A stretch of DNA of 64,000 bases from a virus: positions 1 through 64,000 of the IMG/VR virus record IMGVR_UViG_3300032087_005679; one strand, given 5' to 3'. The position numbers and the translations under genes were made by a program. Numbering within the stretch: position 1 is the first letter of the stretch; each line of letters opens with the position of its first letter. A model generated the notes under the pieces. That model was not told the origin of the DNA. It saw only the letters and a list, made by a program, of their open reading frames with translations, and did not search any database. This document shows, piece by piece, positions 39,141 through 53,689 of this stretch.

Positions 39141-39397
39141 TTTTTATACACTCTTTTACTTATTTTACTTTTGTAGTTTTTTAACTCTTCTCTTCCTTCT
39201 TCTATAGCTTCTAAAACTTTACTTCCTCTTTTTTCCTTGCCACCATCTGTCTTTTTAACTGTTTGTAAAATAGAAGACAGGTTCTTCTTTATATTCTTAG
39301 AGCCACATTCCAGACAAGAAATGTCCTTATCTTTATACGAATGTCTTATCTGTGATTGCTTCTTGCATTCTAAGCAATCATAAAGATATAGTGGCAT
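39137..39397 (-). CDS. FmdB-like zinc ribbon protein
   Basis: 86 residues. It starts MPLYLYDCLECKKQSQIRHS and continues to ISCLECGSKN, giving the CxxC...CxxC zinc ribbon of the FmdB/putative regulatory family at residues 8-36. The C-terminal half is a basic helix (YKSKISKRVYKK). FmdB-like ribbons are common in bacteria and in T4-like phages, usually with unknown role; nucleic-acid binding or regulation is assumed. The start codon overlaps the preceding stop (TAATG). Confidence 0.82.
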   Translation of the reverse strand: MPLYLYDCLECKKQSQIRHSYKDKDISCLECGSKNIKKNLSSILQTVKKTDGGKEKRGSKVLEAIEEGREELKNYKSKISKRVYKK

Positions 39398-39576
39398 TAT
39401 TCAACTTCGAAAGCTGGCTTTGTTGGTGCAAAAGTTGGTGGATTAGTTACAACAATCTCGTCGTCTTTCACTTCTAGATCCCAGTCCGATAGAAGTTCTG
39501 TAATATCACTTTCTTCTGCTAAGCACTTCTGCAAAGTCATCAAAAGGGCACCAATTGCTTGATTAGATAGTTTCAT
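39397..39576 (-). CDS. Small acidic conserved-type protein, 59 residues
   Basis: A 59-residue reading frame: MKLSNQAIGALLMTLQKCLA, then an acidic helix (EESDITELLSDWDL) and a beta C-terminus with VVTNPPTFAPTKPAF. It has AAGGAGA 7 nt upstream of the ATG and its TAA shares a base with the next ATG, so it is very likely translated. I have a memory of similar short proteins near gp55 in marine T4-like phages. A gp33-type late coactivator is conceivable by position, but there is no sequence proof. It sits at the boundary between the sugar cassette and the regulatory block. Confidence 0.7.
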   Translation of the reverse strand: MKLSNQAIGALLMTLQKCLAEESDITELLSDWDLEVKDDEIVVTNPPTFAPTKPAFEVE

Positions 39577-39612
39577 TTATTTTCTCCTTGTCTTTATCAT
39601 ACATAAGTTTTG

Positions 39613-40488
39613 CTAATTGTTTAAATGTAGTTCCTTTTTAAGGTTCTCAAAACACTCAGCAATACCTTGCCTAATGTCTATTTCAGCATACCATCCTAGA
39701 TTATTTATTGGCTCAATATCTGCCTGAGTGAATAGAATATCTCCCGGTCGATCTGGAACATATTCAAATTCAATATCTGGAAAGTGCTCCAGTACTATTT
39801 TCTTTATCTCATTTAGCGATATGTTTTTTCCGGTACCAATATCAAAATATTGTCCGTGAAAATCTGTTTCTGATTCCATTGCAAAGATATTGGCGCTAAC
39901 CACATCTTTTACATTTACCATGTCCCTTCTTTGTTCTCCATCGCCAGTAATAAAAGGATTACGACCATCCCTAATATACTGCATATAGTTTGATATGGCT
40001 GTAGCATATGGTCCAGTTGCCGATTGGTCTGGGGAATAAACATTGAAATATCTAAGAGTTACTGTATCGATGTCGAAAACTTTTGCATATAAACGGCACT
40101 CCATTTCTGATATCAATTTTTGAAGACCGTAAGGACTATTGGGGCTTGTACCATCACCAACAACAGATGATGACCCAGAGTAAACTACTCTCTTAGCCTT
40201 TACTTTCCTAGCAAAATTCAATACCTTGGTAGTAGCCAAAACATTATTTGTCATGGTTTCTACAGGGTATTCCATACTATAAGCCACTCTAGGGATACAT
40301 GCCATGTGAAAAATAACTTCTGGCTTGAACCATTCATAAGCTTTATCATTATCAAACACAGATAATAAATCTTGATTTGGATCATTTTTATAATCAATGC
40401 CTATAACTTCGTGACCTTGATTTTCTAGCTCTTTAAATAAATGAGTACCAATATAACCTTGGTGACCTGTAACTAAACATCTAGTCAT
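39613..40488 (-). CDS. NAD-dependent sugar-nucleotide epimerase/dehydratase (extended SDR)
   Basis: 291 residues. The Rossmann glycine motif is VTGHQGYIGTHLF; the catalytic Y-x-x-x-K is in SPNSPYGLQKLISE; and FNVYSPDQS with RRDMVNVKDV are conserved extended-SDR blocks. It resembles GalE/WbpP-type UDP-hexose 4-epimerases, but the exact reaction (4-epimerase, 4,6-dehydratase or decarboxylase) cannot be fixed. It is the last gene transcribed in the sugar cassette, overlapping fcl by 8 nt, and probably supplies an activated sugar to the glycosyltransferases encoded upstream. Confidence 0.82.
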   Translation of the reverse strand: MTRCLVTGHQGYIGTHLFKELENQGHEVIGIDYKNDPNQDLLSVFDNDKAYEWFKPEVIFHMACIPRVAYSMEYPVETMTNNVLATTKVLNFARKVKAKRVVYSGSSSVVGDGTSPNSPYGLQKLISEMECRLYAKVFDIDTVTLRYFNVYSPDQSATGPYATAISNYMQYIRDGRNPFITGDGEQRRDMVNVKDVVSANIFAMESETDFHGQYFDIGTGKNISLNEIKKIVLEHFPDIEFEYVPDRPGDILFTQADIEPINNLGWYAEIDIRQGIAECFENLKKELHLNN

Positions 40489-41416
40489 TTGTTTTGCCTC
40501 TTATGTTAGGATAATTATTTACAAACCACTCACAAGACTTTTTTATTCCTGTATCGAATTTAGTATATTTATTTTCATCCCACCCTAAATCAAGTAAGTT
40601 CTTGTTACTGCTTGGTTTTCTAAACTGTCCGTTTGGCATATTAGGATTCCAGGAAATTTCTCCTTGGTATCCTAAATTACTACACAAAGATTCAGCAACC
40701 TCTCGAATAGAGAGTTCGTCTGTGTATCCTATGTTTATCGGCTCAGATTCACCATAGTTGTCAATTAAGTAAAATAAAATTTCTGCAATGTCGAGAGAAT
40801 AAGTAAACTCACGCCTTGGAGATCCATCACCCCACACTTCCACGGTAGGATCATCGTTTAGTTTTGCCTCATATATTCGTCTCATAAGGGCAGGTATGAC
40901 ATGTCCGTCTTCAAGGTGGTAGTTATCATTCTCACCATATAAATTGTTAGGAATAGCACACATAAAATTACAGCCATATTGTTGGCGATATGCTCTACTT
41001 TGTACCTCAATCATTCTTTTAGAGTATGCATACCCAAAATTAGATGAGTGAGGAGGTCCTAAATGTAATTGCTCCTCAGTAATTGGATAGGTTACACTGT
41101 CTGGATAGACGCAAGTAGAAAGCATCGATACAACTTTATTAACACCAGAAAGCATACTTGAGTGCAAAACATTTGAATTTATCTTACAATTTTCAGTAAA
41201 AAAATCACCAACGTAATCTGTGTTTGCTTTTACTCCACCCACACGAGCAGCTAAATGAATGACTGTATCATAATGCCCGCTTTTGATAAAGTCAAGAACT
41301 TCTTCCTCATTGACTAGATCAAGATCAGATCGAGTCGGGAAGTCAGCGTCAGGTTTCACTTGCTTTATAGCATGTCCGACCATACCAGAACCACCAGTAA
41401 CTAATATTTTACTCAT
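40481..41416 (-). CDS. fcl: GDP-L-fucose synthase (GDP-4-keto-6-deoxymannose epimerase/reductase)
   Basis: 311 residues, near the 321 of E. coli Fcl. It has TGGSGMVGHAI for NADPH, the epimerisation acid/base residues C102 (MLSTCVYPDS) and H172 (DGHVIPALMRRIYEA), and the reductase Tyr/Lys pair in Y129-A-Y-S-K133. PNNLYGENDNY and WGDGSPRREFTYSLDIAEIL are further Fcl hallmarks. The enzyme makes GDP-L-fucose from GDP-4-keto-6-deoxymannose. The preceding enzyme, GDP-mannose 4,6-dehydratase, is not obvious in the window, so the substrate may come from the host or from another part of the genome. A GT11-like fucosyltransferase candidate lies three genes away. Confidence 0.9.
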   Translation of the reverse strand: MSKILVTGGSGMVGHAIKQVKPDADFPTRSDLDLVNEEEVLDFIKSGHYDTVIHLAARVGGVKANTDYVGDFFTENCKINSNVLHSSMLSGVNKVVSMLSTCVYPDSVTYPITEEQLHLGPPHSSNFGYAYSKRMIEVQSRAYRQQYGCNFMCAIPNNLYGENDNYHLEDGHVIPALMRRIYEAKLNDDPTVEVWGDGSPRREFTYSLDIAEILFYLIDNYGESEPINIGYTDELSIREVAESLCSNLGYQGEISWNPNMPNGQFRKPSSNKNLLDLGWDENKYTKFDTGIKKSCEWFVNNYPNIRGKTND

Positions 41417-44445: not shown

Positions 44446-45246
44446 TTACATTTCCTTTCTAATAACTGGATCAACAAGTGAGCCATCATGGTTTATTAGT
44501 TTTTCTTCTTTATTCCTATGAGGAAATTCAGTTATAGGCTGTGATTTATCATAGCCATAAAATGGCAAACAAATGCTTGGTATCAAAATCGTTTCAAAAG
44601 AATTTATCCTAATGTAGTCTTCTAGTGCTAACTCTGGGCAAGGAAAATTATTATCGGTCCTGGATTCATCTTCACCATCAAGATATACGAAAGAACAATA
44701 TGTATCAAATGTTTTTTGATTACAGAAAGAAAAAAACCATGGGTCCCTATGTCCGCTAGGATAAACTGTGCTATACAGTCTATTATCCTGTATCGCAAAT
44801 TGTGACATGTCTACAGGCACTGGAAAATGAGAGTTATCTGGTCGTAGTCTTACAACTATATCATATTCAAAACCTTGCTGATTTGCATATTCTTTTGCCA
44901 TCAGGAAGCCTTTTCGAATGTTTCTCATTTGATTATTCATTTTCCTTTTAAAATAACCTAAAGTGCCAAAATCATCAGAATCTAAATTTTCATATTCATC
45001 AATATACAAGTCTTTGATTCGATCTCCATAAACTGCTTTTATTTCCTCTGCTAATTTTTCGGATGGTATTGCTGTTGTTGTTTTATACTCTTGTGTTATA
45101 TTATCTCCAACTGTATGCATAGTATTTTTATTACAAGCATAGATAAAAACATCCATGTTATTAACGTCGATCAAGTGATTGATGTGGTTCAAAGCATTTA
45201 CTTTATAATCTCTAAGTTGTCCTGTAATAACCGCCGCTATTCTCAT
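44446..45246 (-). CDS. Glycosyltransferase-like protein of GT-A type, unknown specificity
   Basis: 266 residues. It starts MRIAAVITGQLRDYKVNALN, a form of the opening of capsule-type transferases that I know only loosely (I-x-x-x-G-Q-x-R-x-Y). The middle has YDIVVRLRPDNSHFPVPVDM, where the RxDN-like acidic residue may bind the sugar donor, and CPELALEDYIRINSFETILI. No C-terminal membrane segment is seen. It overlaps the C-methyltransferase gene by 4 nt. Donor and acceptor cannot be read from the sequence. Confidence 0.65.
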   Translation of the reverse strand: MRIAAVITGQLRDYKVNALNHINHLIDVNNMDVFIYACNKNTMHTVGDNITQEYKTTTAIPSEKLAEEIKAVYGDRIKDLYIDEYENLDSDDFGTLGYFKRKMNNQMRNIRKGFLMAKEYANQQGFEYDIVVRLRPDNSHFPVPVDMSQFAIQDNRLYSTVYPSGHRDPWFFSFCNQKTFDTYCSFVYLDGEDESRTDNNFPCPELALEDYIRINSFETILIPSICLPFYGYDKSQPITEFPHRNKEEKLINHDGSLVDPVIRKEM

Positions 45247-46439
45247 ATTACTTCTACCTTTGGAAAATACTTAATAAATTTTAAAGATGAATTAGTAATT
45301 TCATTAGCCCTGTTACTAATTTCCCTAAAAAAGTTCCAGGCTAGTGGCACTACGACTAATTTATCTTTATCTTCTGATACTAATGACGTTGGGTTTTTGA
45401 TTTCTATATTTCTTCCTGGAGTCATTAGATCCCATTTCAACTCATTGTCATCCACAATGTAATCTAAATCTATCTCAGCAAAGTTTAGAAAAGTATTACC
45501 TTTTGCGGCAGCACCGTACCCTACCACCTTATATCCATCAGACTTAAATTTCTCAACAACATTCCGAAAATCGTTTACAACACTTAGGCAGTTGTTTGCA
45601 TACTGTTTATATGTCTCTGAATTATAAAGCCCTCTGTTATTTTCGTTTTGAATTTGTTTGTCTGCAAGAGACTCGTCTCTATCCCCTAATTGTAAAACAA
45701 AGACATAACTCCCACCATGGACCTCTGTCTTCCTTACATCCACCAGAGAAAACCCATTTATATTAGCACACATCTTCATCGATAAAGAACTAAAAAATGA
45801 AAGATGTTCGTGATAAATGGTATCAAACTGACTATCAAGTATCATGTCTGCTTGGGAAGTTTGTATAATAACATAACCATCATCATTTAGGCTGACAACA
45901 CAAGCTTGAAGAAAATCATGCACGTCGTCAACATGGGCGAAGACATTTTGCGCTGTTATAAGATCAAACTTTGTTTGAAATGATAGGGCTACCTCAGGAT
46001 TCCAATATTCGCATAATACATTATGATTATCTTTACTAAGTGGGTATAAATTTTCTGCTGGGTCAACGCCGAAAGTTTCCCACCCCTGTTCTTTGAATTT
46101 ATCTAATTGAGTACCATCATTACAAGCAATATCTAAAACCTTGCCTTTTTTCTTGGTGTATTCTTCGCACAAACCTACAAAATCAGAAAAATATTGGTGT
46201 AGAGTCTTACTTGTGCCACTAACATATAAATAATCTCTAAACATCAAGTCTGGATTTACTACGACGCTTAGTTGTGTGTGAAAACAATCATTACAGGTGC
46301 AAATTTTCAAAGGATAAGATTTTTGATCTTCCCCTTTATGGTAACTATTGGCTAGAGGTTGCTTATTTAAATCCAAAACCTCAGTTAGATTTTCTGATTT
46401 ACAAACTCTACAATTATTTACTTCTGTATATTCTAGCAT
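45243..46439 (-). CDS. NDP-hexose C-methyltransferase (TylCIII/EvaC type)
   Basis: 398 residues, near the typical 410. The three parts of this family are present: an N-terminal zinc site (C10xxC13, then C49xxC52 in ICTCNDCFHTQL), a class I SAM domain (GKVLDIACNDGTQLDKFKEQ), and a C-terminal Rossmann-like domain with KVVGYGAAAKGNTFLNF. The YHEHLSFFS block near residue 210 is a hallmark; equivalent Tyr and His residues are catalytic in TcaB9. Such enzymes add a methyl group to C3 of NDP-4-keto-2,3,6-trideoxy-type sugars, giving branched deoxysugars. It agrees with deoxysugar enzymes nearby. Confidence 0.87.
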   Translation of the reverse strand: MLEYTEVNNCRVCKSENLTEVLDLNKQPLANSYHKGEDQKSYPLKICTCNDCFHTQLSVVVNPDLMFRDYLYVSGTSKTLHQYFSDFVGLCEEYTKKKGKVLDIACNDGTQLDKFKEQGWETFGVDPAENLYPLSKDNHNVLCEYWNPEVALSFQTKFDLITAQNVFAHVDDVHDFLQACVVSLNDDGYVIIQTSQADMILDSQFDTIYHEHLSFFSSLSMKMCANINGFSLVDVRKTEVHGGSYVFVLQLGDRDESLADKQIQNENNRGLYNSETYKQYANNCLSVVNDFRNVVEKFKSDGYKVVGYGAAAKGNTFLNFAEIDLDYIVDDNELKWDLMTPGRNIEIKNPTSLVSEDKDKLVVVPLAWNFFREISNRANEITNSSLKFIKYFPKVEVI

Positions 46440-47361
46440 CTGATCTGTTCCCCATATTCATGGAATTATAATTATCTACCAGTGATTTGGTAATACTCTC
46501 CACTGTCTCTTCAAATTCAAAATCAAACTCTTTTTCAAATTTTTCGGGGTTTATCAAAAAATCATACGCTTTTGCTTGAAGCTTAACATTTGTTATAATT
46601 TCTGGTGGTTTGTCGGATATAACCAATTCAGCACCTGTTACTTTAGCTACCCCAGATGCAATATCTTTGGCATTTGAATTAAAAGAAGCCAGGTTATACA
46701 TCCCTTTGTTAGACTCATTACCTTTTTCTATGATTGTTTTAACCGCTCGACATAAGTCAGAAATACCAAGTATTGGTCGATTGACTTCTGGATTGAAACA
46801 AAATATCTTTTTGTTTTCTATCGCATTATAGGTCATAGCATTAATCATAATATCGTTTCTCAAGTTAGGAGAATATCCGTTGACAGTTCCAAACCTAAGT
46901 CCAAAATAAGTCTTACTTGACAATTCTGCATATGAGTCTATTTCATGCTTAGATAAATCATAAAAGTTATTTGGCTTAAACTTTGAATAAGATTCATCTA
47001 CCACTCTGGTACCAGTGTCACCATAAACAGAGGAACTACTTGCATATATAAACAATTGTTTGTCATCGATCTTACCTAGTAGTTCGGCAAAATTTACCAC
47101 GTTATTTCTTAGTGTTGACATCATATTATTTTCGCACATTTTTACACTAGAATGCCCGGCTAAAAGAATAACAACACTTTTATCAATCAAGTCTCCATCA
47201 TTTATGGAGTTCATATCCTTGTCTAGATTATTAGGATTACAAAAGTTACCAAACCATTCAGTGTCAATAGTTGACACATCATACTCTTCCTTGAGGTGAT
47301 TATATAAACGAGTACCAATGTACCCACAACCACCAATTATTAGAACCTTCTTTTTTACCAT
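46414..47361 (-). CDS. NAD-dependent epimerase/dehydratase (extended SDR)
   Basis: 315 residues. The NAD motif is IIGGCGYIGTRLYN, SSSVYGDTG the usual S-containing strand, and YDLSKHEIDS the catalytic Y-x-x-x-K. The substrate-binding half is less conserved than in the other epimerases (NRPILGISDLCRAVKTIIEK), so no specific reaction can be given; NDP-hexose 3- or 5-epimerase, 4-ketoreductase or 4,6-dehydratase are possible. The C-terminus overlaps the C-methyltransferase start by 26 nt, which argues for joint expression in deoxysugar synthesis. Confidence 0.8.
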   Translation of the reverse strand: MVKKKVLIIGGCGYIGTRLYNHLKEEYDVSTIDTEWFGNFCNPNNLDKDMNSINDGDLIDKSVVILLAGHSSVKMCENNMMSTLRNNVVNFAELLGKIDDKQLFIYASSSSVYGDTGTRVVDESYSKFKPNNFYDLSKHEIDSYAELSSKTYFGLRFGTVNGYSPNLRNDIMINAMTYNAIENKKIFCFNPEVNRPILGISDLCRAVKTIIEKGNESNKGMYNLASFNSNAKDIASGVAKVTGAELVISDKPPEIITNVKLQAKAYDFLINPEKFEKEFDFEFEETVESITKSLVDNYNSMNMGNRSDARIYRSK

Positions 47362-47663
47362 ATCCTGTGGCGACCTCTTAATATTTCATAAAACATGATC
47401 CAATCACATGCCTTAGCTTTTAACGTGGTCCAGCCGTAATCTTTTTTACCTTCCCATGCTAAAGGTTTGTTTTTTTCGAAAACGCCATGAGCGACCCAAG
47501 CAAAAGGATAAACAACTAAAGGAATGAGCGGGAATAAAAACCAGTACCAATTATACACTACTGTAAAAGTAAATGCAATTGTAAACAACTGACCTAAGAA
47601 GTGTAATAGTTTACACTTTGGGTGTTGATGTAGTGTTAGATAAAATTCGTAGTATTCTTTCAT
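47355..47663 (-). CDS. Mpo1-like (DUF962) membrane protein, putative 2-hydroxy fatty acid dioxygenase
   Basis: 102 residues. The family pattern is clear: FYLTLHQHPKCKLLHFLGQL with H12, H14 and H21, then WVAHGVFEKNKPLAW with H59, and a C-terminal MFYEILRGR. Two membrane segments (residues about 24-38 and 40-58) separate the histidine blocks. Yeast Mpo1 uses Fe and these histidines to shorten 2-hydroxy fatty acids by alpha-oxidation; bacterial members are uncharacterised. In a phage it could alter host lipids or act on a lipid-linked glycan. An AAGGAGACAAAAT leader gives a strong start. An AATAAATA octamer lies 27 nt upstream. Confidence 0.8.
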   Translation of the reverse strand: MKEYYEFYLTLHQHPKCKLLHFLGQLFTIAFTFTVVYNWYWFLFPLIPLVVYPFAWVAHGVFEKNKPLAWEGKKDYGWTTLKAKACDWIMFYEILRGRHRIW

Positions 47664-47679: not shown

Positions 47680-48609
47680 TTAGTTTTGATATTTATTATC
47701 TATCTTAACTAATGGGAAAACTTTCAAAAGCTCATCAATACCATCTTCAACTGTAATAGTAGTTTCAAAACCTAAGGAATTAATTTTATCATACGAAACA
47801 ACATAGTTTCTCTTATCAACATCTCCATCGAAGTCAGCATAATGTACATAACATTCTGTTCTAGACTGAATTAGATCACAAACATCTCTCTTGGAATAAT
47901 TCATGGAATTTGACCCGACGTTATAAACCTCACCACTCATCTTATCAGAATTGTTTACAGCGAACTCAAACACTCTTGCAATATCTCTAACATGTATAAA
48001 AGTTCTCATAAAATGAGATTCATAAATAACTATGTATTTTTGAGTGTGTGCCAAGTAAGATAAATCATTTACAAGCAAATCTAATCGTAATCTTGGACTT
48101 ACACCAAAAGCGGTAGCAAAACGAAAGGCGCTGCTGTTTTCATATTTCATCACCTCTTGTTCACCAAGAGTCTTACTTATACCATAAATACTCAAGGGAT
48201 TTAGTGGTGTTTCTTCAGTACATACGTCTTCAACTGCTCCATAGTTTGAACCTGTAGAACCATAAACTAAAAACTGTTTACCATCCAAACAAGAAATAAC
48301 ATTTTTAGTACCCTGGTGATTTACTGCGTGGGCTAATTCCTCATCTCTGCGACAAGCAGCATAGCCTACAATAGCTGCAAGGTGTATGATAATGTCCTGT
48401 CCTTCTGTTGCTTTTTTTAATTCATCAACATCAAGTATATCACCCTTGATGAATCTAAAGTTGGGTTCACCAAAATTATGAATAAGCCCACTACCATCAA
48501 CAGTCAAGTTATCATATACAGTAACTTGATGACCGTTCTTCAACAACAAAGGGACTAATGTTGTGCCGATATAACCAGCACCACCAGTCACAAGTATCTT
48601 TTTACTCAT
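47680..48609 (-). CDS. NAD-dependent epimerase/dehydratase (extended SDR)
   Basis: 309 residues from the ATG with GGAG at 6 nt; an ATG four codons earlier is weaker. NAD motif VTGGAGYIGTTLVP, S-T-G strand LVYGSTGSNYG, catalytic Tyr and Lys in YGISKTLGEQE, and a typical late block MRTFIHVRDIARVFEFA. It most resembles NDP-hexose 4-epimerases or reductases of deoxysugar operons. The substrate is unresolved. It is transcribed between the Fcl-like protein and the Mpo1-like gene. Confidence 0.82.
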   Translation of the reverse strand: MSKKILVTGGAGYIGTTLVPLLLKNGHQVTVYDNLTVDGSGLIHNFGEPNFRFIKGDILDVDELKKATEGQDIIIHLAAIVGYAACRRDEELAHAVNHQGTKNVISCLDGKQFLVYGSTGSNYGAVEDVCTEETPLNPLSIYGISKTLGEQEVMKYENSSAFRFATAFGVSPRLRLDLLVNDLSYLAHTQKYIVIYESHFMRTFIHVRDIARVFEFAVNNSDKMSGEVYNVGSNSMNYSKRDVCDLIQSRTECYVHYADFDGDVDKRNYVVSYDKINSLGFETTITVEDGIDELLKVFPLVKIDNKYQN

Positions 48610-48657: not shown

Positions 48658-49575
48658 CTAAAGATTTTCTTTATAAAAGTCAACTGTGTTCCTGATACCC
48701 TCTTTATGGTCGTAAAAAGAAAAGTCAGGAAACTTTTCCCGGAACAATTCTGTCGATAGAATTTTTACGGGATCGCCGTCTGGATACTGGGTGTCAAATA
48801 CTAACTCTCCTTCAAAACCGCAAGCCTCTTGGATAAGAAGTGCTGATTCCTTAATTGAGTATCCCTTAGCTTGACCTACATTTACAGGGTATTCGAGATG
48901 ATCTATATCCATAGCTCGGATTAGTACCTCTACGAAATCATCAACGTAAGCCCACTCTCTAACAGGATTGCCAGTCCCCCAAACAACAAACTCGCCATCT
49001 CCAGCTTGTTGTGCTTTTAGCATTCTTATAACCATACCATTCAAGGCATGAGTCTTAGTTGGATCGAGGGAATCCCCAGGTCCGTATGTGTTAGGTAGTA
49101 GCAAATTTACAGTTTTTACCCCATATTGATTGTAATAACATTGAGATAGGTAATAAATTGCTCTTTTAGAATTACCAAAAGAAAAAACCGAATCGTGAAC
49201 TCCTCCATCGAGCCAGTTCTCTTCTAATTGAATTGAACTATCTCCAGGGTACGAACAGTTGGAAAACGGTTGAATTATTTTTATCTCAGGATTATAATCT
49301 AGCACCGCCTTGTAAACATTCAAATTCATCTGAAGGTTATCACCATATACGTCAGCAGCATACTTTCTAACATACATCATACTGCCACCATGAGATGCAA
49401 GGTTATAAATCAGGTCAGGATTTTCTTTTTCCAAAAAATTTCTAAAGGATTGGTAATCTAAAAGATCAAGACCTAAAGTCTTGGACGTCCTTGATACAGT
49501 ATGCCCGTCACTAACAAGACGATCATATACTTTTTCACCAATAAAACCAGTACCACCAAGTACTAAAATCTTCAT
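48658..49575 (-). CDS. Fcl-like epimerase lacking the catalytic tyrosine
   Basis: 305 residues, started at the ATG after CTGGAGAATAGA. Overall it is a second GDP-fucose-synthase homologue: VLGGTGFIGEKVY, QPFSNCSYPGDS with C107, VNLLLPNTYGPGDSL, THALNGMVIRML with H176, and VWGTGNPVREWAYVDDFVEV. The residues used for C3/C5 epimerisation in Fcl (Cys and His) remain. The reductase Tyr of Y-x-x-x-K is Phe here (F133-G-N-S-K137). If the alignment holds, the enzyme could epimerise a 4-keto sugar but not reduce it, or it uses another residue. Confidence 0.8.
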   Translation of the reverse strand: MKILVLGGTGFIGEKVYDRLVSDGHTVSRTSKTLGLDLLDYQSFRNFLEKENPDLIYNLASHGGSMMYVRKYAADVYGDNLQMNLNVYKAVLDYNPEIKIIQPFSNCSYPGDSSIQLEENWLDGGVHDSVFSFGNSKRAIYYLSQCYYNQYGVKTVNLLLPNTYGPGDSLDPTKTHALNGMVIRMLKAQQAGDGEFVVWGTGNPVREWAYVDDFVEVLIRAMDIDHLEYPVNVGQAKGYSIKESALLIQEACGFEGELVFDTQYPDGDPVKILSTELFREKFPDFSFYDHKEGIRNTVDFYKENL

Positions 49576-49576
49576 T

Positions 49577-50260
49577 CTATTCTCCAGAGTATTTGAAAGT
49601 GTAGCCATGGATCCTTATTTTGGGTCCATATCCATTATAATAAGTTGATTTTATGATTTTGTCTAGTTCTTCTTTTGAAATATCAATATCAATATTTTCC
49701 AATTTGTCAATATCTCTTATTCGCCCTGTTTTTTTGCCCCACTCATCCGTATTTTCAGAAGATATTCTAGACAACTCTTTAGGTCCTTGAACTGTTATCG
49801 TGTGTATTATATTTGAAAAAGAATCAAATTGACATCTGTGAACCTTCTCTAATAAGCTTTCTACATTATCTTCATCTTCTATGACTACTCTGTAAACATT
49901 TATTATGGGTCCATTGTCAACATTCTTATTCATATAGTGAACTGTTACCCCAGTTTCAGCGTCTTCGTTATATAAAGCCCAATTTATACCACCAGACCCT
50001 GGGTACTTGGGGTGTGATGGGTGAAAGTTTATAGCTGCAATACTAGCCTTATTTATGAACTGTTCTGGCAAGATACAATAAGACTTATAATGAAATATAT
50101 AATCTCCACTCCACTCTTCAATTTCTTTCGGTATTTTACTGCCTCTTTTTTTTGATGCTTTCCAGAAGGTTGTTTCAAAACCTTTTGACACAAGAAGGTC
50201 TACAGCGTTGTTGCTGTATCGACAATCTTCAAAGCCTATAAATAGTGCTTTGCTAGTCAT
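49577..50260 (-). CDS. Sugar N-formyltransferase (formyl_trans_N family)
   Basis: 227 residues from the ATG that overlaps the aminotransferase stop (AATGACTAG); a longer frame inside that gene is not credible. The catalytic set of 10-formyl-THF transferases is visible: N78-F-H80 in AAINFHPSHPKYPGSGGINW and D115 in MNKNVDNGPIINVYRVVIED. Methionyl-tRNA formyltransferases are longer (about 310) with a C-terminal tRNA domain absent here, while sugar N-formyltransferases such as WbtJ or VioF act on dTDP-4-amino-4,6-dideoxyglucose. The coupled aminotransferase gene directly before it supports an amino-sugar substrate. Confidence 0.85.
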   Translation of the reverse strand: MTSKALFIGFEDCRYSNNAVDLLVSKGFETTFWKASKKRGSKIPKEIEEWSGDYIFHYKSYCILPEQFINKASIAAINFHPSHPKYPGSGGINWALYNEDAETGVTVHYMNKNVDNGPIINVYRVVIEDEDNVESLLEKVHRCQFDSFSNIIHTITVQGPKELSRISSENTDEWGKKTGRIRDIDKLENIDIDISKEELDKIIKSTYYNGYGPKIRIHGYTFKYSGE

Positions 50261-50846
50261 TCTTAAACACATCCATTTGAGATAGATCAGGCCAGTCAGT
50301 ATAGACCCACTCCTTTGGTTTAGTAATCTTTGCGTTAGGTAGTTTCTTGAGACCAAGCTCTGCCGTTTCTGGTGTCATATAGTAATGATAACCTATGGTC
50401 TTAATATTCTGAACTGACCAGGAAAGATCTGGACTTCTTCCATCATAAGACATTCTTTTCAAGGTGTCATACTCTTCCTTGTTATCAAATAAAATAACCC
50501 CACCCCTGCCAAGGCTTAAGTGTTTTCGAAATTGAAAACTGATACACATATATGTCCCTGGAATGTAGCTATTTTCTTTCCAGTGAACGGCGGCGTCGAT
50601 AATGTTTTCTGTTAGATAATAATAATCTTTCCACTTTTCATCGGTCCATTCTAGTCCTATGCTTAGTTTATCTGCCAACATAGGCACAGACAAATAAGTG
50701 TGTCTTGGTACTTTTATTTTACTTGTGCCCTTCATGCGTAAACATAATTCTAATCCATGTGTGCAACAATCAACAGCAACCGCATAAGGTGCCCCAAAAA
50801 AATTAGCTATCTCATTTTCAAAATCTTTTATTGCTTGAAATGACAT
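50253..50846 (-). CDS. Compact DegT/DnrJ/EryC1-type aminotransferase
   Basis: 197 residues; family members usually have about 370. Still recognisable: DFENEIANFFGAPYAVAVDC at the N-terminus (the usual E-x-x-x-A-x-x-x-G-x-x-x-A-V), a short central part, the PLP-lysine region SFQFRKHLSLGRGGVILFD with K108 as the candidate, and GYHYYMTPETAELGLKKLP (usual N-Y-R-M-S-E-L-x-A-A-L-G-L). The C-terminal small domain is nearly gone. If functional it adds the amino group to a keto sugar; the following gene is an N-formyltransferase. The reduction could be a deletion remnant, but codon use and a tight overlap look normal. Confidence 0.75.
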   Translation of the reverse strand: MSFQAIKDFENEIANFFGAPYAVAVDCCTHGLELCLRMKGTSKIKVPRHTYLSVPMLADKLSIGLEWTDEKWKDYYYLTENIIDAAVHWKENSYIPGTYMCISFQFRKHLSLGRGGVILFDNKEEYDTLKRMSYDGRSPDLSWSVQNIKTIGYHYYMTPETAELGLKKLPNAKITKPKEWVYTDWPDLSQMDVFKND

Positions 50847-51784
50847 TATGAATCTCCAATCTTGTTTATAAGATGTTGTGCCATACGTTCCCAGGTATAT
50901 TTTTGTGATGCTATCTCAAAAGCATTTTCAATTATTTTATTCCTAGCATCATCATTAGATAAGTAATATTCAAGTTTTTCATCAAAATCTGACAGGTCAT
51001 TCTCAAACAAAACGCAATTTTCTCCATCTACAAAAACATTCTCATATTCATACGGCATGTTGTTACAGAACAATAAAGTCTTTGATAGCATGACCTCAAA
51101 ATACCTTGGACTTACATCATTATTTGGTCCTGTAGTAGCAAGCCAAATCTTGCTTTCTCTCATTATTTTAGCGTATTCTTCAACGGAAGAAATTCTATAA
51201 CTAAGGTCCCCCTCTTTACTAGAGTTCCAGAAAACATTGTACTTAGTTTTTTCTAACCTTTCATGCACTCGATCTCTAAGATTCATGGTTGGTCCAGGAA
51301 TCTTTCCTCCACCATGAGAAGCGCCACTAAAACCAAAATCATACTTTTTATTTTCAAAAGACGGATAGAATACATCTGGATTAGCTGTGAACCAAAACCT
51401 TATCGGGACCGAGTTTGTTATTTCTCCGTACTCTTTGTAGGTTATATTCGTATCCATAAGAATGCTGATATTATTAACTTTACAAAATTGTAATTTTTCT
51501 TGCAACATTGTCTGAGGTTTATGTAACATACAAACAACTGGAATGCCTACGTCTTTCAATCCTTTGATCTCTTTATAAACATCTGGGTTTGTTTGTGTAA
51601 AATATCCTAAACCAAAAATAATACAATCAATATTACTGTTTTTGATTGTCTCAAAATTATGAACTCTGTTTTGAAATAGGTGTACGGTTGCCTTCTTTTT
51701 CAATTCTCGGTATAGATCACCATAATATTGATACATATAGTTATCAGCAACTGTATTGCCATGATCTATGTATAAGATATTCAC
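50846..51784 (-). CDS. Glycosyltransferase, GT-B fold (Glyco_trans_1_2 / CgeB-like)
   Basis: 312 residues. The C-terminal half has SPRYFEVMLSKTLLFCNNMP and VFVDGENCVLFENDLSDFDE, the donor-site signature of the Glyco_trans_1_2 family (PF13524), followed by YTWERMAQHLINKI. The N-terminal half is a Rossmann-like domain (MNILYIDHGNTVADNYMYQY, VVCMLHKPQTMLQ). These are typically cytoplasmic NDP-sugar-dependent transferases in capsule, spore-coat or O-antigen loci. It overlaps its neighbours by 1-4 nt. Sugar and linkage are unknown. Confidence 0.8.
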   Translation of the reverse strand: MNILYIDHGNTVADNYMYQYYGDLYRELKKKATVHLFQNRVHNFETIKNSNIDCIIFGLGYFTQTNPDVYKEIKGLKDVGIPVVCMLHKPQTMLQEKLQFCKVNNISILMDTNITYKEYGEITNSVPIRFWFTANPDVFYPSFENKKYDFGFSGASHGGGKIPGPTMNLRDRVHERLEKTKYNVFWNSSKEGDLSYRISSVEEYAKIMRESKIWLATTGPNNDVSPRYFEVMLSKTLLFCNNMPYEYENVFVDGENCVLFENDLSDFDEKLEYYLSNDDARNKIIENAFEIASQKYTWERMAQHLINKIGDS

Positions 51785-52683
51785 TTAGAATTATCCTTTA
51801 CTCCTGGGGCATAATCACAAAGATGACGTAGAGCACCTTGACTGTGGTATCCTTCGTCTACAGTTTTTAGATCATATATGTTGTCCCCATGGTGTATGAG
51901 GTAAAACAAACTGTTTACGTCATTATCCCCCCATCTATACTTGTAAATGCCACCATATTGATTCACAGCGTTGATCCACTGTTTCCATTCAGGCGTTTCA
52001 AACATAGAAATCTTAACAACATATGAATCGGCACAAGGATAGAAATGAAAGTTTTTATCAGCCTCTGGATCTGATAATAAATTTTTCATAAACTGGGATT
52101 TTGGCTCAACGTTATAATGTTTCAAATAGCCTTTTACAAACTTCCAAAGATTGATTCTGGTATCAAAGTTTCCCTGGTGAGGTAGTTTCTTTGTTTGATC
52201 ATACACCTTCAAAGCACCCATCGGCTCAACTTGATTCTTCATAACCTCAAATGGATCGTAAGTCATAGGCTTGATAAACATAGATTCATCATCTACACTC
52301 ATTGTATAATCATATTTTTCAAATTCAGTATTCGGGTAACCATAATAATTTGACATAAAGTGACACATGTGTAGGTACCCCTTACGAGATATTGGGAATT
52401 GTGTTCTTGAATACCATAAATCATTTCTATTATAAAAAAGATCCTCCTCTTTTATATGTTTTGGTGTTTCATAGGGAATAGAAACAAAATTTACATTCTG
52501 AGGTGTTTGACTTCTAACAGATTGTCTGAATTCTTCTGAATCGTAAATATCGTCAAAGTAATAAACATACACAGGATAGTTGTGTTTGTGGTTGTAGTTT
52601 TCCCAAAGAGCTTTTAAGCTATGTGGTATACATGCTTTCCTAGAAGAAATATAGGTTATACAGGCTTTTAATTTATCGCTCAT
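51781..52683 (-). CDS. GT15-like glycosyltransferase (KRE2/MNT1 mannosyltransferase family)
   Basis: 300 residues. Blocks shared with fungal alpha-1,2-mannosyltransferases: YPVYVYYFDDIYDSEEFRQS near the start, HMCHFMSNYYGYPNTEFEKY then DYTMSVDDESMFIKPMTYDP (the Y-x-W-R-V-E-P-D region, here with Asp/Asp/Glu), and near the end WINAVNQYGGIYKYRWGDND, equal to the GGFYxERWGDAPVHS block that holds the catalytic pocket. The fungal enzymes are Golgi type II membrane proteins; this one has no anchor. It is likely a retaining transferase using GDP-mannose or another NDP-sugar. Confidence 0.8.
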   Translation of the reverse strand: MSDKLKACITYISSRKACIPHSLKALWENYNHKHNYPVYVYYFDDIYDSEEFRQSVRSQTPQNVNFVSIPYETPKHIKEEDLFYNRNDLWYSRTQFPISRKGYLHMCHFMSNYYGYPNTEFEKYDYTMSVDDESMFIKPMTYDPFEVMKNQVEPMGALKVYDQTKKLPHQGNFDTRINLWKFVKGYLKHYNVEPKSQFMKNLLSDPEADKNFHFYPCADSYVVKISMFETPEWKQWINAVNQYGGIYKYRWGDNDVNSLFYLIHHGDNIYDLKTVDEGYHSQGALRHLCDYAPGVKDNSK

Positions 52684-53689
52684 AATATTTTACTCCTGCG
52701 TTTGTGTATATGTCCGATATCAATGATAGGCAGTTTTCTGATTCTGTTATCATAAAACTGTCAAGATTACTGTATAATTCAGGGTGGTTAGGACAAGAAC
52801 CTCTGTAGTTACCATAAGAATTTGACTCCTTAGGGTTTTCCAGTAATTTTATCTTTTCTTTATATTGTTTCTCTGTTTCTTTATCAATAAATTCTGACTT
52901 TGTAACTTTATCAAGCGCCTTACCACCAAGTTCAATATAGCCATTCTCAGCTAAAATAGATATAGTGCATTCTATGTTGGTTGGTTCACTTGCTATAGTT
53001 ACTTCGATAGTTCCACCAAAACTTCCAAAGTCAACTAAAGAATATACTGTGTCCTCAATTGAGTAGTCAACGTGTTTCGTATTATACAACAATGAAGACT
53101 GAACTTTTGGCTTGCCAAAAAGATAGCACATGATATCTAAGTAATGAATTCCACATTCATGCAAAGTCCCACCACCAACTTCTGGGATACCCCGCCAATT
53201 TTGAAAATACTCCTTTGGTCTTTGCCATCTTTGAGTGAGACTAATTCCTCTTATTTTTCCAAGTAAATTGGTTTCTAGTAATTCTTTCGTAAAAGAAACT
53301 ACTGGATTAAGCCTCACTTGTAAAACACAGTGAGCTTTCTGGCTGTTCGCATCCGCAATTGTTTTTAGTTCTTGTATCAAGTTGTGATCTAAGCACGCTG
53401 GTTTTTCTACCAAAACATCACAACTGTTTTCTAGACAGTATTTTGCTTGAGAATAATGTAATGAGTTAGGGGTTGCAATGACTACAAAATTTATATCTTC
53501 TTTAGATAACATATCTTTATAATCAACATACCCGCTTACACCTCTTTTTGACGCCTCTAGATCTACAATGTTTTGATCTAAGTCACACAAAGATACTAGT
53601 TCAAAATTTTTATTTCTATCTATAGCTTCCAGGTGTCTGACAAGGATTTTACCACACCCAATTATACCTACCTTATACTCTGCTTTCAT
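52673..53689 (-). CDS. Gfo/Idh/MocA oxidoreductase, WlbA/WbpB-like
   Basis: 338 residues. The N-terminal NAD domain (YKVGIIGCGKILVRHLEAID) and the E95-K96-P97 motif are standard for Gfo/Idh/MocA. The block QRPKEYFQNWRGIPEVGGG followed by TLHECGIHYLDIM resembles UDP-GlcNAcA 3-dehydrogenases (WlbA/WbpB), which oxidise C3 before an aminotransferase adds nitrogen. A DegT-type gene is present nearby, so a 3-amino sugar route is a possible reading. The start is supported by CTGGAGAAAACAT; it overlaps the GT4 gene by 17 nt. Confidence 0.82.
   Translation of the reverse strand: MKAEYKVGIIGCGKILVRHLEAIDRNKNFELVSLCDLDQNIVDLEASKRGVSGYVDYKDMLSKEDINFVVIATPNSLHYSQAKYCLENSCDVLVEKPACLDHNLIQELKTIADANSQKAHCVLQVRLNPVVSFTKELLETNLLGKIRGISLTQRWQRPKEYFQNWRGIPEVGGGTLHECGIHYLDIMCYLFGKPKVQSSLLYNTKHVDYSIEDTVYSLVDFGSFGGTIEVTIASEPTNIECTISILAENGYIELGGKALDKVTKSEFIDKETEKQYKEKIKLLENPKESNSYGNYRGSCPNHPELYSNLDSFMITESENCLSLISDIYTNAGVKYYER

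Follow-up and report, generated by a model that had tools for sequence, protein, structure and literature searches.

A compact DegT-type protein coupled to a sugar N-formyltransferase in a marine phage record, with a predicted role in GDP-N-formylperosamine-type synthesis

We identified, in a surface-sugar cluster of an uncultured virus, a compact DegT-type protein, here called mini-DegT, encoded together with a sugar N-formyltransferase. The two are predicted to catalyze, and in our assessment probably do catalyze, the final two reactions in a pathway of the GDP-N-formylperosamine type, with GDP-N-formylperosamine as the most likely product of the pair. We also lean slightly towards a broader reading, in which mini-DegT, at ~195 residues, has full sugar aminotransferase activity without the C-terminal domain of fold-type-I enzymes. 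It would then be a minimal PLP aminotransferase that is widespread, disseminated mainly by marine phages, and so far undescribed, and the pathway seen here would be the first in a phage to yield an N-formyl amino sugar.

The gene pair and its sugar cluster

The window, the whole stretch of DNA analyzed (64,000 nucleotides), corresponds to bases 1-64000 of the IMG/VR virus record IMGVR_UViG_3300032087_005679, which is 74,195 bases long. Baseplate, primase, and PhoH genes are present in this record, and its baseplate wedge protein is nearest to those of phages of Microcystis and Flavobacterium (32-33% identity). The source is probably an uncultured phage, a marine T4-like myovirus. About 20 surface-sugar genes and glycosyltransferases span ~39.6-58.7 kb of the window; those that bear on the pair are the following.

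39397-39613, minus strand: 59-aa ORF only, where the closest relative has a GDP-mannose 4,6-dehydratase (L108 6797-7768)
40481-41416, minus strand: GDP-L-fucose-synthase-like SDR (NF047922, 265.6 bits, cut-off 500)
45243-46439, minus strand: sugar C-methyltransferase-type protein (Methyltransf_13/23/14)
46414-47361, minus strand: NDP-sugar epimerase/dehydratase-like SDR
47355-47663, minus strand: Mpo1-like (PF06127) small protein, within the conserved block
47680-48606, minus strand: NDP-sugar epimerase/dehydratase-like SDR with YxxxK, in the same conserved block as the pair
48658-49575, minus strand: GDP-L-fucose-synthase-like SDR, 305 aa from the ATG at 49575, with Phe in place of the SDR catalytic Tyr; in synteny with the pair
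49577-50260, minus strand: predicted sugar N-formyltransferase, 227 aa (N78/H80/D115), overlapping the aminotransferase gene by 8 nt
50253-50846, minus strand: predicted compact DegT-type PLP aminotransferase (mini-DegT), 197 aa, with Schiff-base Lys K108 and D84, T29, S103, and Y51, without the C-terminal domain
50846-51784, minus strand: glycosyltransferase (Glyco_trans_1_2), directly upstream of and abutting the aminotransferase gene
51781-52683, minus strand: GT15-like glycosyltransferase (PF01793)
52673-53689, minus strand: GFO/IDH/MocA-type sugar dehydrogenase

The DegT-like ORF runs on the minus strand from an ATG at 50846 to a TAG ending at 50253, and the formyltransferase ORF from an ATG at 50260 to a TAG ending at 49577; they overlap by 8 nt (50253-50260) in the sequence AATGACTAG. 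A longer ORF-finder version of the latter, with a TTG start at 50356, is unlikely, as its relatives begin at or near the ATG. The pair and its overlap had been reported in a preliminary description made from the sequence, and both ORFs were recovered at those positions with family matches above cut-off: PF01041 for the DegT-like ORF (56.6 bits, cut-off 19.8) and PF00551 for the formyltransferase (75.4 bits, cut-off 26.1). Comparison with the closest relative, L004, gave dN/dS values of 0.067 and 0.095, respectively. Both ORFs are therefore under strong purifying selection, and the pair is not a product of chance.

Three SDRs and the C-methyltransferase are syntenic with the pair. In the SDR at 48658-49575, the Phe in place of the YxxxK Tyr (SFGNSK) is kept in eight related contigs, and Tyr is found in L019 and L073. 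The Mpo1-like gene, of the 2-hydroxy fatty acid dioxygenase family, sits within the sugar cluster and is kept in six related phage contigs. The GT15-like glycosyltransferase shows 70-92% conservation across six related contigs, the pair being present in five; PF01793 is a family known mainly from fungi, which we take to use GDP-mannose. The SDR at 40481-41416, judged by its sequence, suggests that GDP-4-keto-6-deoxymannose may serve elsewhere in the cluster. By eye, L002 (7839-8777; 9177-10891) carries near the record end an ORF resembling a trypsin-like serine protease that is secreted; the opposite strand has two secreted-looking ORFs, one of them cysteine-rich with a VWA-like stretch.

Architecture of mini-DegT

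Fold-type-I aminotransferases are two-domain dimers of ~350-450 residues. A domain map of one of them is available (PMC5936713). Mini-DegT has 197 aa versus 376-403 aa for the full-length DegTs in neighbouring loci. Its PF01041 match falls into two pieces, the better of which stops at profile position 237 of 360, and profile alignment to sixteen full-length DegTs (hhalign, probability 99.6, E 6e-24) showed that the first ~38 positions, ~45 internal residues ahead of the Asp motif, and ~110 residues at the C-terminus are missing. The protein thus has neither the N-terminal arm nor any of the C-terminal domain. Because the C-terminal small domain is absent, with the profile match ending at 237/360, mini-DegT is a compact DegT variant and not an ordinary PF01041 member. 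The preliminary description had named the type and had overlooked the half-size architecture.

The AlphaFold2 model (pLDDT 94.1) matched many DegT structures in the PDB with Foldseek at a probability of 1.00, the match being to the PLP domain; mini-DegT has the large PLP-binding domain of fold type I, itself ~45 residues shorter. T29, Y51, D84, S103, and K108 are invariant in 37 sequences with identity down to 36% and align with the full-length DegT motifs, so that the Schiff-base Lys in SFxxxK, the Asp for the pyridine N, and the Thr/Ser for the phosphate are all kept. The five correspond to residues that, in Spr1654, are described as binding the phosphate or the ring or forming the Schiff base (PMC5936713). 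Two features of the usual enzymes are not kept, namely the Gln/His found three residues past the Asp and the GxNxR motif, which reads GYHYYM in mini-DegT. The Asn of GxNxR contacts the phosphate in usual DegT enzymes and is supplied by the second subunit. Taken from the model, mini-DegT would be a reduced DegT fold consisting of the PLP-binding core only, and is predicted to be an enzyme.

The short length was common to all 84 homologues measured: 78 of them have about 195-221 aa, the majority falling within 195-213 aa, and the longest (250 aa) carry unrelated C-terminal tails. This uniformity, together with the dN/dS of 0.067, ruled out truncation, a frameshift, or a pseudogene as the cause. 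An enzyme split over two genes was also ruled out, as a profile of the C-terminal domain matched only full-length DegTs.

Predicted substrate and alternative readings

Structure searches with each protein, run separately, point to the same GDP-linked sugar, with small margins. For mini-DegT, Foldseek ranks 1-3 are GDP-perosamine synthase, slightly ahead of ArnB (1.9e-10 versus 1.1e-9), and GDP-perosamine synthase was also first in a sequence profile search (3bn1, 6.6e-12). For the formyltransferase (model pLDDT 91.4), ranks 1-5 are Brucella WbkC, including the GDP-perosamine complex 5vyu (TMq 0.82); a Pantoea sugar N-formyltransferase completes the first six, and ranks 7-8 are Fmt structures. 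The modelled protein is predicted to share the fold and the Asn/His/Asp set of the WbkC/VioF/WbtJ class. This catalytic set, noted in the preliminary description, held up, with Asn78, His80, and Asp115 invariant in 13 formyltransferases from related loci.

Gene neighbourhoods point the same way. A canonical GDP-mannose 4,6-dehydratase gene lies immediately downstream of mini-DegT in about 70 of ~102 loci, a count that includes several near-duplicate contigs, so that independent cases are fewer. Upstream neighbours of mini-DegT include hexapeptide and GNAT acyltransferases, a methyltransferase, and formyltransferases, and a Prochlorococcus single-cell contig carries cupin, formyltransferase, mini-DegT, and dehydratase genes side by side in that order. 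The order seen in the window, mini-DegT followed by the formyltransferase, recurs in six other contigs; these, the window, and two contigs without the formyltransferase form one clade (support 99/94). Formyltransferases of other subfamilies lie upstream of mini-DegT in L021, L059, L096, and L103. The pairing seems to have more than one origin, since the formyltransferases lie upstream or downstream and come from divergent subfamilies. In all, the formyltransferase of the pair or a relative touches mini-DegT in eleven loci. In one phage contig (L041:8993-10836), a full-length DegT is joined directly to a formyltransferase, mini-DegT also being present.

The dehydratase was found above its family cut-off in all six window-type relatives and not in L008 and L010, which have no adjacent formyltransferase. 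No GDP-mannose dehydratase was found in the 74-kb record, an absence overlooked in the preliminary description. Neither was a decayed copy present in the window, where the syntenic place holds just the 59-aa ORF; in L108, the dehydratase gene follows the counterpart of the 39.6-kb SDR. Since the relative G006 has its dehydratase ~47 kb away, that of this phage may lie beyond the sampled 74 kb, or the host may supply the enzyme.

In the predicted pathway, GDP-mannose from the host would be converted to GDP-4-keto-6-deoxy-D-mannose by a GDP-mannose 4,6-dehydratase of the host or of the unsampled part of the phage genome. Mini-DegT, with PLP on Lys108, would then move an amino group (from glutamate, by analogy) to C4 to give GDP-perosamine, as its residues, fold, and neighbourhood suggest; it would presumably do so as a homodimer whose shared active site is independent of the C-terminal domain, although in known enzymes the N-terminal arm and the C-terminal domain, both missing here, help form the active site. 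From its residues and fold, the formyltransferase would formylate the 4-amino group with 10-formyl-THF as donor, and glycosyltransferases of the cluster would attach the sugar to a glycan, which would be the LPS of the host (during infection) or part of the virion. The likely use, by analogy, is a change of the host surface during infection, as proposed for other cyanophages with sugar clusters (PMC9602691, PMC7824862), or a decoration of virions like that in Mimivirus (PMC4691112). This account gives no role to the adjacent SDRs and the C-methyltransferase, which counts against it.

These syntenic genes are one reason to consider a different nucleotide sugar. The pair might act on a TDP- or UDP-linked 4-keto (or 3-keto) sugar of the host and yield Qui4NFo, Fuc3NFo, or, through the neighbouring SDRs and C-methyltransferase, a C-methyl-branched formamido sugar. 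The aminotransferase and formyltransferase folds are common to TDP-, UDP-, and GDP-sugar enzymes, and by sequence the formyltransferase is as close to ArnA as to WbkC. We nevertheless regard this as unlikely, given the dehydratase that accompanies the pair in 6/6 relatives and follows mini-DegT in most loci; moreover, nine records yielded neither a dTDP-glucose dehydratase above cut-off nor a sugar nucleotidyltransferase (NTP_transferase), on which grounds the TDP-sugar route was rejected. Of the two substrates put forward in the preliminary description, the comparative evidence thus favours GDP-4-keto-6-deoxymannose over dTDP-4-keto-6-deoxyglucose, and its proposal of an N-formylated amino sugar gains support from fold, catalytic residues, and the recurrent pairing, seemingly of independent origin, with formyl- or acyltransferases in phages and bacteria. 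A far more remote reading makes the formyltransferase a PurN or Fmt enzyme that lies next to the aminotransferase by coincidence. Its best PHROG match, PHROG 9240, is indeed named phosphoribosylglycinamide formyltransferase, a label that traces to genes like that of P-SSM7, and both models match it, yet far below their cut-offs (PurN, 62.5 bits against 150.1; Fmt, 59.7 bits against 201.5). The protein, with 227 aa, is also much shorter than the 315-position Fmt model, and its top six structure matches are sugar N-formyltransferases. The GSGSN loop is the phosphate-binding motif of PurN, and inspection of the N-terminus, MTSKALFIGFEDCRYSNNA, did not reveal it. Scores, length, and fold thus ruled out either identity, and the eleven loci in which such a gene adjoins mini-DegT argue against coincidence. 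The P-SSM7 gene (L107:5812-6387), which carries the phosphoribosylglycinamide formyltransferase annotation and shares the PHROG name, is not in a sugar cluster.

It is also conceivable, if rather improbable, that mini-DegT binds PLP or derives from DegT without being a sugar aminotransferase, acting as a PLP-dependent dehydratase or as a non-catalytic partner of a full-length DegT of the host. Its half length, its missing C-terminal domain, and the GYHYYM in place of the phosphate-binding Asn motif would fit this, and some mini-DegT loci also encode a full-length DegT. However, most loci examined, the window included, have none in the stretch covered, and the neighbours are the dehydratase and N-acyl- or formyltransferases. 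The Schiff-base Lys is kept, whereas ColD-type dehydratases have a His at this position, and Lys, Asp, Thr, and Ser do not vary, even where identity falls to 36%.

Distribution and comparison with known systems

The compact form is common in marine phage contigs and rare in cells. Relatives of mini-DegT were found in at least 597 candidate stretches of viral contigs but in only seven GenBank phage records; a 195-aa relative in S-SCSM2R is annotated as 3-amino-5-hydroxybenzoic acid synthase. A scan of cellular DNA gave 17 contigs, from Marinimicrobia, Prochlorococcus, Alphaproteobacteria, and other groups, and the form is compact in 16 of these; the sampled genomes with mini-DegT numbered 7/245 in the Marinimicrobia phylum and 1/244 in the cyanobacterial phylum. 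None was found in plasmids, and in the tree the cellular copies are scattered among phage copies. Two contigs (L019:1767-4995 and L048:551-6588) carry two mini-DegT genes each, one being only ~36% identical to that of the window, and Flavobacterium phage immuto (L087:4277-9196) encodes, besides a full-length DegT, a mini-DegT with a PglD-like hexapeptide acyltransferase after it.

The compact form seems undescribed to date. A literature search, with subscription papers mostly outside its reach, found nothing joining phages with N-formylperosamine synthesis, or DegT with phages and perosamine, in agreement with the earlier remark that no characterised phage pathway for an N-formyl sugar is known. 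Because mini-DegT is common in marine phage contigs but scores far below curated NCBI models, phages probably have a class of surface-sugar pathways that has escaped notice. A half-size form, conserved and with its cofactor site intact, would reveal how much of the fold can be dispensed with, and would offer a small scaffold for the synthesis of rare amino sugars. N-formylperosamine on the infected cell or the virion would be a testable means of altering what is seen by other phages or by grazers.

GDP-perosamine synthase (PerA/RfbE, Caulobacter 3bn1/3dr4/3dr7), the best structural and profile match of mini-DegT, shares with it the DegT fold, the Schiff-base Lys, the pyridine-N Asp, the phosphate-binding Thr/Ser, and, in most mini-DegT loci but not in this 74-kb record, the genetic link to GDP-mannose 4,6-dehydratase. 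It differs in length (~373 versus 197 aa), in having the N-terminal arm, the ~45 internal residues, and the C-terminal domain, and in reading GYNYRM where mini-DegT has GYHYYM. Brucella WbkC (GDP-perosamine N-formyltransferase, 5vyr-5vyu), the best structural match of the formyltransferase, has the same fold, the same Asn/His/Asp set, and the substrate expected here. The window protein is only ~17-19% identical to it, is shorter (227 versus 261 aa), is phage-borne, and is coupled to a compact aminotransferase. Among viruses, the T4-like cyanophages P-SSM2 and S-SCSM1 are large marine myoviruses with GDP-mannose dehydratase, fucose synthase, epimerases, and glycosyltransferases, for which a role in changing the surface of the host has been proposed; their clusters, as described in the accessible parts of those reports, include no N-formyl sugar step and no compact aminotransferase (PMC9602691, PMC7824862). 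The Mimivirus R141-L136-L142 pathway to UDP-viosamine likewise pairs a virus-encoded aminotransferase with an N-acyltransferase to make an N-acylated 4-amino-4,6-dideoxyhexose, but it derives from UDP-glucose, adds an N-acetyl rather than an N-formyl group, and belongs to a eukaryotic giant virus (PMC4691112).
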